From: Elusimicrobiales bacterium
Lineage (GTDB): Bacteria; Elusimicrobiota; Elusimicrobia; Elusimicrobiales; UBA9959
Length of the DNA: 56,824 bases
Direction: 5' to 3'
Assembly: GCA_031082205.1 (NCBI GenBank)
Contig: JAVHLJ010000009.1
Location: forward strand, 1-56,824
In this document: positions 39,567 to 43,341 of the stretch, piece after piece
Layout of the letters: every line of letters starts with the position of its first letter
Numbering within the stretch: position 1 is the stretch's first letter
Position numbers and translations under genes: made by a program
Notes under the pieces: model-generated
Told to the model about the DNA's origin: nothing
What the model saw: only the letters and a program-made list of their open reading frames with translations
Databases searched by the model: none

Positions 39567-40505
39567 TTACTTCGCTTCGATGGCTTCGGTCTTGTCCTTC
39601 TTTATGAACTTGTCGGTGGAGATGTCGCCGAGGCGCTTGAAGCCCCACTTGAGGTAGAACTTCTTGGGGCCGCGGTAGCTGTCGTCGGCCTCGGGCTTCT
39701 CCAGTTCCTTCTCGGTGAAGGTCATGGTGTAGCCGCGGGCGGCGTCGAAGACGAACTCCTTCCCGCCCTTGTAGGAATCGGGCCAGAAGCTGACCTGCCT
39801 GTAGAGGTCCACCTTGATGGCGACCTTCTCGCCGGCGTACTCGCCGCCCCACTTGTCGCTGACGGTGAAGGTGTACTTGCCCTTTTCATAGGAGAACTCG
39901 ACGGCCGCGAGGCCGTCCTTGTCCGGGTCGGTGGCGACCTTCTTGCCGGGGGTCAGGGTGTAGAGGGTGTCGTAGTTGCCGGTCTTGGAGACCGAGTACT
40001 TGTAGGCGGCCTGGTTGACGTAGAGGCGGCTCCAGGGACCCTCGAGGCAGACCTCGAAGCTGTCGCGCTCCCAGGGGAAGAGCTTGCGGGCCTCCACCTT
40101 CACCTGCACGGCCTCGCGCCAGCTCTGGCCGGGGCGCTCGTAGCAATTGGTGACCGGGCGGGTGACGCACTGGGTCTGCGGCACCTGCGTGCCGTTGGGG
40201 CCGGGCACCATGACGGTGTGGCACTGCTGCACGTACTGGGTGTGGCAGTCCTGTATGTACTCCTGGCTGTGCAGCCAGACGCGCTCGGAGGTCTGCGCGG
40301 CGTCGGACGGGCCGAAGCCGAAGCGGACGCAGTCGCGGGTGTAGCGGCTGTGGCCGAGGTACCTGTCGGCGACGGGCAGGTCCGCGGACACTTCGGCGGC
40401 CCGCTCGATGGCGGCCTTCACGTCCACGCCCTGGTCAAAGTTTATCTCGGCCTTGGCGGCCCCGGCGAAGCCCAGAAGGACCGCCGCTATGAGTATCTTT
40501 TTCAT
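39567..40505 (-). CDS. Exported protein sharing an N-terminal motif with the 42053 gene
   Basis: 312 residues. A signal peptide (MKKILIAAVLLGFAGAAKA) is followed by INFDQGVDVKAAI, which is also present at the start of the mature protein encoded at 42053-43204. The middle region is Cys-rich (DCHTQYVQQCHTV, TQCVTRPVTNCYERPG), and the second half is strand-rich with aromatic and Lys residues. No known domain recognised. The start at 40505 is chosen for the signal peptide. It is preceded by the conserved TTACC/GGTAA and TTGAC/GTCAA elements, so it is probably coregulated with the 42053 gene. Confidence 0.75.
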   Translation of the reverse strand: MKKILIAAVLLGFAGAAKAEINFDQGVDVKAAIERAAEVSADLPVADRYLGHSRYTRDCVRFGFGPSDAAQTSERVWLHSQEYIQDCHTQYVQQCHTVMVPGPNGTQVPQTQCVTRPVTNCYERPGQSWREAVQVKVEARKLFPWERDSFEVCLEGPWSRLYVNQAAYKYSVSKTGNYDTLYTLTPGKKVATDPDKDGLAAVEFSYEKGKYTFTVSDKWGGEYAGEKVAIKVDLYRQVSFWPDSYKGGKEFVFDAARGYTMTFTEKELEKPEADDSYRGPKKFYLKWGFKRLGDISTDKFIKKDKTEAIEAK

Positions 40506-40566
40506 CTTTCGTTCTTCTCCTGTTCTATACCTTTCGACTTCAGCCGGAACCCCCATGAGGCATATT

Positions 40567-40587
40567 TTACCGGCAGGTAAATTCTAC
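40567..40587 (-). promoter_or_regulatory. Conserved promoter element, copy 1
   Basis: The plus strand reads TTACCGGCAGGTAA (40567-40580) followed by ATTCTAC. On the minus strand this gives TAGAAT (a -10-like hexamer) then a TTACC-N4-GGTAA palindrome. The same sequence occurs at 43248-43268. Confidence 0.6.
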
Positions 40588-40609
40588 AACAAGGCGCACG
40601 GGGAGCGCC

Positions 40610-40623
40610 TTGACATCGGTCAA
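40610..40623 (-). promoter_or_regulatory. Palindrome TTGAC-ATCG-GTCAA, copy 1
   Basis: Starts 30 bp from the end of the TTACC/GGTAA element. The equivalent palindrome upstream of the 43204 start has the same 30-bp spacing. There is no good -35 for the TAGAAT, so this may be an activator site. Confidence 0.6.
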
Positions 40624-41394
40624 TCAAAAATCCACGTCGTTGCCGGGGTATTTGGAGTGTATATCGTAGTCTTCGGATATCTGGTTGATAGGGGAACATT
40701 GAAACATCGAACGTTCATCGGACCATCCAGTCCATTCGCAGACAAACAGCCAATCGTTCCCGTACCCCCTCAATGGCAGATCCGTCCATGCGTACGCCGC
40801 GTTAAGGTCTTTTATCCCCTTAAGGACGAACCCCTCGCGCTCGAGCACTATTTCCACATACGATCTGTCGCCATAACCGAATTTCCGTCCGGCGGCTTTG
40901 GCGATCAGCATCTTGTCCGGCGCGGGAACGACTTTCCGGCCGCTCACCCGGGCTTTGTGATAAAACTGAACGTTATCAACTTCTATAGTCCGGTAACCGG
41001 TTCCGGATGAGATAAGCGCCAGTATGATGTTGGCGTCCCTGTCATAGCCGGCAACCACCACGTCCGCGATACCATCGCCGTTATAGTCGCCCCTCAGCGC
41101 ATAGGGCAGGGAATTTTCGGAAAAAGGATAATACTTCACCCGCCACTCCGGGTAATCCGCCATGGCCCACAGTCGGAAGTCCGGATTATACCCGCGCAAC
41201 GCCGCGGCTGCTTCACCGGCCGGCTCCAGGCTTTTCATATACTCCGGTTTCAGGGGATATTCCCGCGGCAATGGAGGCGGCACCGCCTCCACAGCGCCGG
41301 AAACCGTTCCCCGCTGCGGCACATAAACAGGGGCGTCCTCCTGACAGGCGCAGGCGAAAACGCATATCGCGGCGCCTAATAAAGCGCGGTTCAC
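40624..41394 (-). CDS. Exported or lipoprotein-like VCBS/FG-GAP-type protein
   Basis: 256 residues with a short N-terminal hydrophobic segment (LLGAAICVFACAC) ending in a Cys that could be lipidated, though the lipobox is not ideal. The central DYNGDGIADVVVAGYD is a calcium-binding-type VCBS/FG-GAP motif, followed by ALISSGTGYRTIEV. It is a paralogue of the neighbour at 41396-42046, which has FTDINGDNRDDAVL and VLSEGTTGYRVVQV in the same order. The role is unknown. A 1-nt gap to the upstream gene indicates cotranscription. Confidence 0.75.
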   Translation of the reverse strand: MNRALLGAAICVFACACQEDAPVYVPQRGTVSGAVEAVPPPLPREYPLKPEYMKSLEPAGEAAAALRGYNPDFRLWAMADYPEWRVKYYPFSENSLPYALRGDYNGDGIADVVVAGYDRDANIILALISSGTGYRTIEVDNVQFYHKARVSGRKVVPAPDKMLIAKAAGRKFGYGDRSYVEIVLEREGFVLKGIKDLNAAYAWTDLPLRGYGNDWLFVCEWTGWSDERSMFQCSPINQISEDYDIHSKYPGNDVDF

Positions 41395-41395
41395 G

Positions 41396-42046
41396 CTATT
41401 TCCCTTTCCGCTGATACGATGTTAAGGGGGGAAGGACTTCGAATTCCGGGATCGCGTCCCTTCCTCTCCAGCGAAAAATGTGCACGCCCTCCGCCATAAA
41501 CCATGCGAGATCGCCTTCCTCTACGGCTACTGTCGTGCGGTACCAGTCATCGACGGCCGTGCCGGCGGCAAGCACAGTAAGGCCCTTTTTCACCGGCCTA
41601 TGCGCAATGCCTCTGGATACTTGCACTACGCGGTATCCGGTCGTTCCCTCGGAAAGCACGGCCAGAGTGGAAAAATACTCCTCTTTTACTGTTCCTTTTA
41701 CGCTCCGGTGTTCGATCCAGAGGTCCGCTTCGCCGAAAAGCACCGCGTCATCGCGATTATCCCCGTTGATGTCGGTAAAAACGGCGGAATAGCAGGCGGT
41801 GCTGGAGAAAGTCAGTGGCGCTGATTTCCTGAAATCCCCGTCATAGTCCTCCAGCCCGAAGATCCGGAATGCCGGCGAATGCTCTTTCAGCGCATTAAGC
41901 ATAGCGTCTGGCAGGATTACCTGATACGAGTATTTCACATACCCGCGCCGCGGCTGGCCGGCAGGCGGCGTTTTATCGGAAGAAACCACGGCGACAGGAC
42001 ACAACAGGAATAGCGCCGCAAAAGAACAAGGAAGTTTGCGGAACAT
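41396..42046 (-). CDS. Exported VCBS/FG-GAP-type protein, paralogue of 40624
   Basis: 216 residues. The N-terminal hydrophobic stretch (CSFAALFLLCPVAVVSS) looks like a signal peptide. Mature features are AFRIFGLEDYDGDF, FTDINGDNRDDAVLFGE and STLAVLSEGTTGYRVVQV. The order and spacing match the downstream gene, so the two arose by tandem duplication and have diverged strongly. The ATG at 42046 is preferred over an in-frame TTG at 42052. It follows the 42053 gene after 6 nt. Confidence 0.75.
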   Translation of the reverse strand: MFRKLPCSFAALFLLCPVAVVSSDKTPPAGQPRRGYVKYSYQVILPDAMLNALKEHSPAFRIFGLEDYDGDFRKSAPLTFSSTACYSAVFTDINGDNRDDAVLFGEADLWIEHRSVKGTVKEEYFSTLAVLSEGTTGYRVVQVSRGIAHRPVKKGLTVLAAGTAVDDWYRTTVAVEEGDLAWFMAEGVHIFRWRGRDAIPEFEVLPPLTSYQRKGK

Positions 42047-42052
42047 AAGCAA

Positions 42053-43204
42053 TTACAGGCAGTCCGAAGGCGGCACGGGGTCTTCGGGAATATACTCCCC
42101 ACCGTCGTAAAGGTCAACACACTTCGAATCTGGGATCGGGTCGCCGACGTTAGCCGGACAGCAATTAACACCCAGCGGATCCATATCGAAAGGGGCCGTC
42201 CTGCCCCAGCCGGTCTGGCCGGGCGGCTGCAGGGTCAGGTGATAATGGCCCCTCTTTTCGGTCTCAAGGTCTCCTTCAGAACGAACCGCAAAACCGGCGT
42301 CGCACATCATCCTGATGAGCTTTTCCCGGTTGGATTTCACCACCTGCCGCTTACCGACGTCTATATTGATGCCGTGCTTGTGCTCTTCGTGCGGCGGCTG
42401 CCAGTTGTAGTTAATATCGAACAGGCCGCCCCAGGGAAGGCTGATGTCATTGTAGGAAAGATTCCCCGCGGCGGGGCACGCTTTCTTCCAGTCGCCGCCG
42501 AGTTTCACCAGCGTGTTTATCATTCTGACGGTGCCGAAATGGTTCTTTGGATGGGCCTGCGTAGAACCGTGCAGATCGTAACCGACGCCCTTAGGCATTG
42601 TCATCCATTGCCTGGGGTTTGTTGATTCAGACACCCTTACATCTATATGCATAACGTGCGTACTGGCGCATGAATAGCTGAAAACAGCTTCCTGCGTAAT
42701 CCGTGTCGCGTAGGCAGGTGTTTTCCAGCGGAAGACGAAATCCGTGTTTACCGGGGTTGTTTTTGAATAGATCGGGTTGGGAAGGTCGTCGCCGGCGGGG
42801 GTCGCAATATTCGGCGGCGGCGGGGCCGAATGATAATGCCCGCCATACCACGGGTAATTCTTGTATTCAGACCGCACAGACCAATAGCTGTTCGGCGGCG
42901 GATTCGGATGTGTACAGGAATAGGTGGTCCAGGCCTCCACCCCCGGAGAAACAGTATACACCGGAACCTTATTTTCATACTGCGCCGCGATCGGGATCCA
43001 CTCTCCGTTCTCCGATCGGATGGAGACCATAATATCCACTTTCCCCTGCGGTCCTGAATAGCCGGGAATGAAGGGCATTTCCACGGGGAAATCCCCGGCC
43101 TGCCCGATGGCGGCCTTCACGTCCACGCCCTGGTCAAAGTTTATCCCGGCCTTCGCGGCCGCGGCGAAGCCCAGAAGGATCGCCGCTATCAACAGCTTTT
43201 TCAT
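42053..43204 (-). CDS. Exported protein with a possible LAS-type peptidase region
   Basis: 383 residues. Signal peptide MKKLLIAAILLGFAAAAKA, then INFDQGVDVKAAI as in the 39567 gene. The C-terminal half has EEHKHGINIDVGKR and, about 60 residues later, GHYHLTL. The H-x3-G/H-x-x-G...D plus H-x-H pattern recalls zinc peptidases of the M15/M74 (LAS) type that cut peptidoglycan. This is a pattern-level suggestion only. The N-terminal half is unrecognised and rich in Pro, Tyr and Trp. It is the first gene of a three-gene unit with the two VCBS/FG-GAP-type genes. Confidence 0.7.
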   Translation of the reverse strand: MKKLLIAAILLGFAAAAKAGINFDQGVDVKAAIGQAGDFPVEMPFIPGYSGPQGKVDIMVSIRSENGEWIPIAAQYENKVPVYTVSPGVEAWTTYSCTHPNPPPNSYWSVRSEYKNYPWYGGHYHSAPPPPNIATPAGDDLPNPIYSKTTPVNTDFVFRWKTPAYATRITQEAVFSYSCASTHVMHIDVRVSESTNPRQWMTMPKGVGYDLHGSTQAHPKNHFGTVRMINTLVKLGGDWKKACPAAGNLSYNDISLPWGGLFDINYNWQPPHEEHKHGINIDVGKRQVVKSNREKLIRMMCDAGFAVRSEGDLETEKRGHYHLTLQPPGQTGWGRTAPFDMDPLGVNCCPANVGDPIPDSKCVDLYDGGEYIPEDPVPPSDCL

Positions 43205-43247
43205 TTTCGCACCCCCTGTTCTGCGATTCTGAACCGGAATCCCCAAG

Positions 43248-43268
43248 TTACCGGCAGGTAAATTCTAC
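43248..43268 (-). promoter_or_regulatory. Conserved promoter element, copy 2
   Basis: The plus strand has TTACCGGCAGGTAA (43248-43261) followed by ATTCTAC, identical over 21 bp to copy 1 at 40567-40587. It lies 44 bp before the signal-peptide ATG. Confidence 0.6.
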
Positions 43269-43289
43269 GATGCGGCCGCGCGCGCCCGC

Positions 43290-43305
43290 TTTGACCGAAG
43301 TCAAA
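43290..43305 (-). promoter_or_regulatory. Palindrome TTTGAC-CGAA-GTCAAA, copy 2
   Basis: Perfect 6-bp arms. Its TTGAC starts 30 bp from the TTACC/GGTAA element, as in copy 1. The korB terminator begins 6 bp further on. Confidence 0.6.
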
Positions 43306-43307
43306 CG

Positions 43308-43341
43308 AAAAGCCCCCCGCCCGGACTCCGGGCGGGGGGCC
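43308..43341 (-). terminator. Terminator of korAB
   Basis: GCCCCCCGCCCGG (43312-43324) and CCGGGCGGGGGGC (43328-43340) form a 13-bp stem with a 3-nt loop; on the minus strand TTTT follows. Confidence 0.85.

Follow-up and report, generated by a model that had tools for sequence, protein, structure and literature searches.

The lipoprotein export signal (LES) of Bacteroidetes, K-(D/E)2 or Q-A-(D/E)2, occurs on lipoproteins and has been shown to target them to the cell surface (PMC5080379). PEP-CTERM, MYXO-CTERM and GlyGly-CTERM are C-terminal tags with a known or proposed enzyme, namely exosortase, myxosortase and rhombosortase (PMC1569441, PMC11980579, PMC3237569); the MYXO-type tag includes a transmembrane helix and an arginine-rich end (PMC11980579). 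The YSIRK/GXXS motif is N-terminal and lies within the signal peptide (PMC5962339). The element considered here is a short motif, [VI][ND]FDQG[VI]DVK, that directly follows the signal peptide in two exported proteins encoded by genes A and B, both on the minus strand with starts at 40505 and 43204, of a 56,824-nt stretch of DNA (the window, contig C98) from an Elusimicrobia genome of 2.75 Mb in 98 contigs. Like LES, it is a short sequence found where the mature protein begins and common to different exported proteins, but its consensus differs and lacks the K-(D/E)2 or Q-A-(D/E)2 feature. With the CTERM tags it has in common that a short stretch of homology is carried by exported proteins that are otherwise unrelated, and only in certain lineages, but it is N-terminal and its partner is hypothetical. 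As with YSIRK/GXXS, it is N-terminal and lineage-specific and would guide the destination of exported proteins, but it follows the predicted cleavage site, so that the mature protein would keep it.

On present evidence we lean towards reading [VI][ND]FDQG[VI]DVKxx[VI] as a modular tag, for sorting or anchoring, at the mature N-terminus of many unrelated exported proteins of the class Elusimicrobia, of which A and B are a local instance. Its position, its conservation, its sharing by unrelated passengers and its absence from homologous passengers are direct observations. A search with a 36-residue leader gave matches in 27 of 147 class genomes, and a profile built from 31 leaders matched in 124 of 235 at E<=0.05. 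Profile matches range from 1e-20 to 1e-5 in many genomes of families f1, f10, f14 and f15, with up to 11 per genome, and lie at noise level in family f2 (E 0.003-0.05). At >=15 bits and after reading of the DNA, 131 distinct tagged proteins were extracted, 117 of which could be registered under a rule that required F followed by D or N. Among the registered rows F is present in all, as the rule imposes, D in 108 (92%), G in 104 (89%) and the second D in 94 (80%); the information is concentrated in residues F-D-Q-G-V-D-V-K.

Since the signal peptide is part of the profile, the profile could itself have favored proteins that have one; a separate DNA pattern, FDQG[VIM]D[VIM], was hence used that holds no signal-peptide information. 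Across 341 genomes of the phylum it gave 60 matches, against none for the reversed control. All 60 fall in families f1, f10, f14 and f15, and genomes of other classes in that set have no match. In 40 of the 42 matches whose contexts were read, the motif lies directly behind a signal peptide (the exceptions are L172 and L199), and an AxA-like site is found at most 8 residues before the tag in 115 of 118 leaders. Outside the phylum the search covered plasmids, with no match, so that the restriction to Elusimicrobia is shown within the phylum only. Comparison with solved structures returned a chance match (E=0.92), and an NCBIfam scan of 30 tagged proteins returned no sorting-domain model, with clostripain alone above noise. 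A text search of 5.39 million papers for FDQGVD found no mention; since the greater part of the subscription literature lies outside that search, this speaks only weakly for novelty.

Clustering of the sequence behind residue 45 separates the passengers into 75 A-type proteins, 21 C11 (clostripain) peptidases, 11 M28 peptidases, 9 C1 (papain) peptidases, 3 B-type proteins, 3 coiled and 2 repeat-rich proteins, and singletons that include an alpha/beta hydrolase and a DUF4332/HHH protein. The A-type proteins form a Cys-rich FnIII-like family with no recognized enzyme domain. Homologous passengers can lack the motif: a signal peptide without the tag is seen in C11 peptidases of family f2 (G126 and G122, where the DNA pattern gave no match) and of two genomes from other classes. 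One C11 copy (L255), whose start is too short, was left out of this judgement. In f2 (G122) and f11 there are A-type homologs with a degenerate tag, VDFDSGVDLKNF and DDFDNGLDIKNF, and several A paralogs in f1 have none. Because the tag is degenerate or absent among A-type homologs, the A-type proteins may be its oldest carriers. A short module found on unrelated passengers and missing from their homologs elsewhere is the general mark of a sorting tag, and this is the pattern seen here. Two of the tagged proteins, L094 and L095, include one (L094) with long HPVNPQPY/HPVGPQPY repeats.

The sequence-only reading of the window had drawn attention to two genes with a near-identical leader and upstream block and otherwise different sequences, and this holds. 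The 5' regions of A and B align over 264 columns with 75% identity (BLASTN, E=2e-46), with no significant similarity beyond; the shared block contains the dyad TTGAC-N4-GTCAA, a -10 element, TTACCTGCCGGTAA, the signal peptide and INFDQGVDVKAAI, and the rest of the two genes is unrelated. Identity is uneven within the coding part: 50 of 57 nucleotides match in the signal peptide, 41 of 42 in codons 20-33 and just 30 of 54 in codons 34-51, and similarity fades at about codon 45. Upstream, TTACCGGCAGGTAA followed by ATTCTAC is exact at 40567-40587 and 43248-43268. The 14-mer TTACCGGCAGGTAA has nine matches with up to 3 mismatches, compared with a shuffled mean of 2.65, and is exact at these two sites only; the 21-mer GTAGAATTTACCTGCCGGTAA, which joins the -10 element to the TTACC block, does not occur a third time in the 2.75-Mb genome even when up to 3 mismatches are allowed. 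The spacing between the dyad and TTACC blocks is equal at A and B, as had been claimed, although the gap between the 14-mers measures 29 bp (43 bp from start to start) and not the 30 bp given. The 43-bp spacing is also kept upstream of A orthologs in relatives. We do not favor reading TTACC-N4-GGTAA as a hairpin in the 5' RNA, because the presumed transcription start falls inside the block.

The same reading proposed that the block is a mobile 5' cassette. One module of regulation plus leader does serve two unrelated passengers, and the leader as a module is borne out more widely, its peptide part being seen on six or more unrelated types of passenger within the class. The promoter-leader DNA, however, occurs at these two places only and is the resident promoter of A in relatives without B, so that a genome-wide mobile cassette is not supported. 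The peptide module is widespread, whereas the promoter-leader cassette has been copied only locally.

Gene order in related genomes bears on how this happened. In WAS_Bin_5 and UBA11179, where neighbors were named by reading translations, the genes for the oxoacid:ferredoxin oxidoreductase alpha and beta subunits are followed by the block with A and then by a TrpB-like gene, without B; relatives have a single copy of the block, before A at the same site, and no B lies near the A loci of G204 and G093. In the sister genome X2_MetaBAT.4 (G110), one contig end reads alpha, beta, A2 (a full-length A paralog), block with a B homolog (B'), FG-GAP and onward, and another reads FG-GAP, FG-GAP, FG-GAP lipoprotein, block with A, TrpB-like; the two contigs are presumably adjacent. 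Two FG-GAP-like genes separate A from B in the window, and in both this genome and its sister B and FG-GAP genes lie between two copies of the block. The sister differs in two respects. Its exported FG-GAP-like genes beside A are tandemly expanded (L006:106-2318 compared with window 40624-42052), and B' (L009:4320-4661) still has the leader and, at its C-terminus, the HYH part, while an in-frame loss of about 270 residues has removed the HxxHxxGxxID motif, which suggests a decaying or minimal copy.

B and the two FG-GAP genes would have come between two copies of the promoter-leader block of A, most simply by recombination at the block. The promoter half of B is closest to the A promoter of UBA11179, which stands at the ancestral site (85%), whereas that now before A is 70% identical to the UBA11179 promoter and 83% to that of X2_MetaBAT.4 A; in the untranslated region (UTR), A is 82% and B 54% identical to UBA11179. 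These mosaic identities fit an insertion of B and the FG-GAP genes in which the crossover took place close to the TTACC block, but they do not distinguish single-crossover integration from tandem duplication with replacement. A single crossover of a donor locus comprising promoter, UTR, leader, B and two FG-GAP genes, with B tagged before its arrival, is a possible history, though not a likely one. The mosaic supports it, as do B homologs elsewhere that carry the tag (G082) or a tag-like FDFD start (G050), but the near-identity of codons 20-33 suggests copying or conversion after arrival, and a tandem duplication of A with later replacement is no less possible; the sister genome has an extra A copy. 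Such an integration concerns local history only and is compatible with the tag. Both tags have changed in X2_MetaBAT.4 (EEIKVDFDGNSKG in A and GEIKIDFDGKDKS in B'), compared with INFDQGVDVKAAI in both genes of the window genome. That the tags of A and B changed together suggests gene conversion or shared constraint, as seen in two genomes only.

A plainer history is a local partial duplication in which the 5' end of B was copied from the promoter and leader of A, or the reverse, giving B a promoter and signal peptide and having no further meaning. The sequence-only reading had named, as the outcome that would speak for plain duplication, two copies only with similarity through the whole genes; two copies are found, and the similarity ends near codon 45. 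The two-copy regulatory block, the single copy before A in relatives without B and the fading identity at that codon agree with a partial event, but it leaves unexplained both the recurrence of the tag on unrelated passengers throughout the class and its independent presence on the B homolog found in another family (L042, G082). We consider this account rather unlikely and insufficient as a whole; it stands only for the similarity of A and B at the DNA level.

The dyad is a recurring regulatory site and not one specific to the cassette. TTGAC-N4-GTCAA has nine sites in the genome and one for the reversed control, and eight of the nine lie upstream of genes for exported proteins: a trypsin-like (S1) peptidase, an M14 peptidase, an S8 subtilase, endonuclease I, an FG-GAP protein, an unknown protein, A and B. 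Several of the sites are conserved in three congeners. In congeners the dyad stands before the S1, endonuclease I, S8, unknown and A homologs, and also before a C11 peptidase gene with a tag-like VDFDG start and some genes for non-exported proteins. These C11 peptidases of the genus (L235:1528-2853, L232 and L239) begin with a signal peptide followed by VDFDGxxxxGxIMxxIS, with the dyad just upstream.

Class II Crp/Fnr promoters have an inverted repeat about 41 nt upstream of the start (centered near -41.5), a good -10 element and no -35 element. The A and B promoters would fit this arrangement, with an inverted repeat about 41 nt before the presumed start, a good -10 and no visible -35. The distance from the end of the dyad to the -10 (TAGAAT or TATAAT) is 23 nt in A, B and the A orthologs, the transcription start being predicted from sequence, and is 22-24 nt to a -10-like element at the A, B, unknown and FG-GAP genes. 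They differ from class II promoters in the half-site, which is TTGAC rather than the TTGAT of Fnr, and in that other sites of the genome overlap the -35. In the S1 promoters the left half of the dyad is itself the -35, with a 17-bp spacer, so that several modes of action or several regulators are possible. Two Crp/Fnr-type proteins score above the Pfam cut-off in this genome, and A and B are probably members of a secreted-hydrolase regulon on which an activator of this type acts through TTGAC-N4-GTCAA. Between the oxidoreductase beta gene and the dyad of B lies a strong G+C-rich inverted repeat, GCCCCCCGCCCGG...CCGGGCGGGGGGC (43312-43340), which is probably the terminator of the beta gene.

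The two passengers of the window differ in how well they can be modeled. The AlphaFold2 (AF2) model of A has a pLDDT of 82 and is well folded apart from the N-terminal region, where leader, tag and linker (to about residue 50) have low confidence and a lone short helix spans residues 29-38; Foldseek returns RbmA and other tandem FnIII proteins at low TM-scores. The model of B is of low confidence (pLDDT 60), with residues 24-52 among the worst. A Pfam scan of B gave no match. Its motif resembles, at the motif level, the H-x6-D and H-x-H zinc ligands of LAS metallopeptidases: in an alignment of seven homologs H275 and D282 (HKHGINID) and Y321 and H322 of HYH are invariant, and the first H of HYH varies. 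An LAS fold was not among the Foldseek matches, which were beta-sandwich proteins returned for the pLDDT 60 query. A PDB match of B to a DARPin fusion (E=0.00035) was dismissed as chance; no single stretch is significant alone. Coordinates are given in Table 1.

Table 1. Features of the A/B locus in window coordinates
Feature	Position	Strand	Basis or remark
Gene A	39567..40505	-	exported Cys-rich protein, 312 aa; predicted tandem Ig/FnIII-like beta domains (AF2, Foldseek)
Tag of A, INFDQGVDVKAAI, residues 21-33	40407..40445	-	sequence
Signal peptide of A	40449..40505	-	sequence
TTACC-N4-GGTAA block, presumed transcription start of A	40567..40580	.	sequence
Proposed -10 TAGAAT of A, 23 nt after dyad	40581..40586	-	spacing kept at the A genes of relatives
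Dyad TTGACCGATGTCAA upstream of A, adjoining stop codon of FG-GAP lipoprotein gene	40610..40623	.	sequence
FG-GAP-like lipoprotein gene, travels with B	40624..41394	-	below Pfam cut-off
Exported FG-GAP-like protein gene, travels with B	41396..42052	-	below Pfam cut-off
Gene B	42053..43204	-	exported protein, 383 aa; SLPWGG-FDI...PHxxHxxGxxID...HYH motif
Tag of B, INFDQGVDVKAAI, residues 21-33	43106..43144	-	sequence
Signal peptide of B	43148..43204	-	sequence
TTACC-N4-GGTAA block, presumed transcription start of B	43248..43261	.	sequence
Proposed -10 TAGAAT of B, 23 nt after dyad	43262..43267	-	sequence
Dyad TTGACTTCGGTCAA upstream of B	43291..43304	.	sequence

As to function, we tentatively propose, short of an even chance, that FDQGVDVK is the address label of an undescribed system for sorting or surface retention: non-lipidated, mature-N-terminal and read by a dedicated receptor, it would serve both hydrolases that are secreted and scaffold proteins of the FnIII-like kind, some of which one dyad would place under common control. 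In the mechanism proposed for the modular tag, the precursor would be exported by Sec and trimmed before the tag by signal peptidase I at the AxA site. The exposed FDQGVDVK and the short helix behind it would then be recognized by a component of the envelope that delivers the protein to, or retains it at, the cell surface, and the flexible linker would let any domain ride behind the tag.

Other functions can be considered for the same position. The motif might only tune Sec export or signal-peptidase cleavage by giving the mature chain an acidic start. Its acidic residues and its place directly after the AxA-like site would suit such a role, but the information resides in specific F-D-Q-G-V-D-V-K residues, far beyond charge, and exported C11 homologs of tag-poor lineages lack the motif; this alternative seems improbable. 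Slightly more improbable still is a propeptide or chaperone-like inhibitor segment that is cut off when secreted proteases are activated. Peptidases (C11, C1 and M28) are frequent among the passengers and the tag sits where propeptides lie, but the same 10-residue motif occurs on unrelated folds and mechanisms, most often on A-type proteins without a recognized enzyme domain, and untagged C11 homologs manage without it. A lipoprotein reading is rejected, in that 109 of 118 leaders have no lipobox-like match and the nine that do have it nearly all in the hydrophobic region away from the tag, with the AxA-like site present in 115.

Several points weigh against our interpretation of the tag and of the locus. 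The A-type proteins make up more than half of the tagged set, and the tag might be the N-terminus of that family, occasionally borrowed. B stands next to A in two genomes only, the window genome and X2_MetaBAT.4. Given the overlap with the -35 element, control of all dyad sites by one regulator is unproven and more than one may act. Finally, the tag might instead be a relic, a propeptide or an element of export efficiency, and both the receptor and the processing enzyme are hypothetical.

Elusimicrobia are mostly uncultured, and in the papers searched we found no account of the way in which their secreted enzymes get to the cell surface or remain there. The A/B pair illustrates the recruitment of a promoter and leader by a new passenger. 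If the proposal is correct, a short, non-lipidated tag at the mature N-terminus, shared by many secreted proteins without mutual relationship, would represent a sorting signal of a new type. Such a tag would help to list the secretome of the class and would open its receptor to a search by phylogenetic profiling, as was approached for PEP-CTERM.

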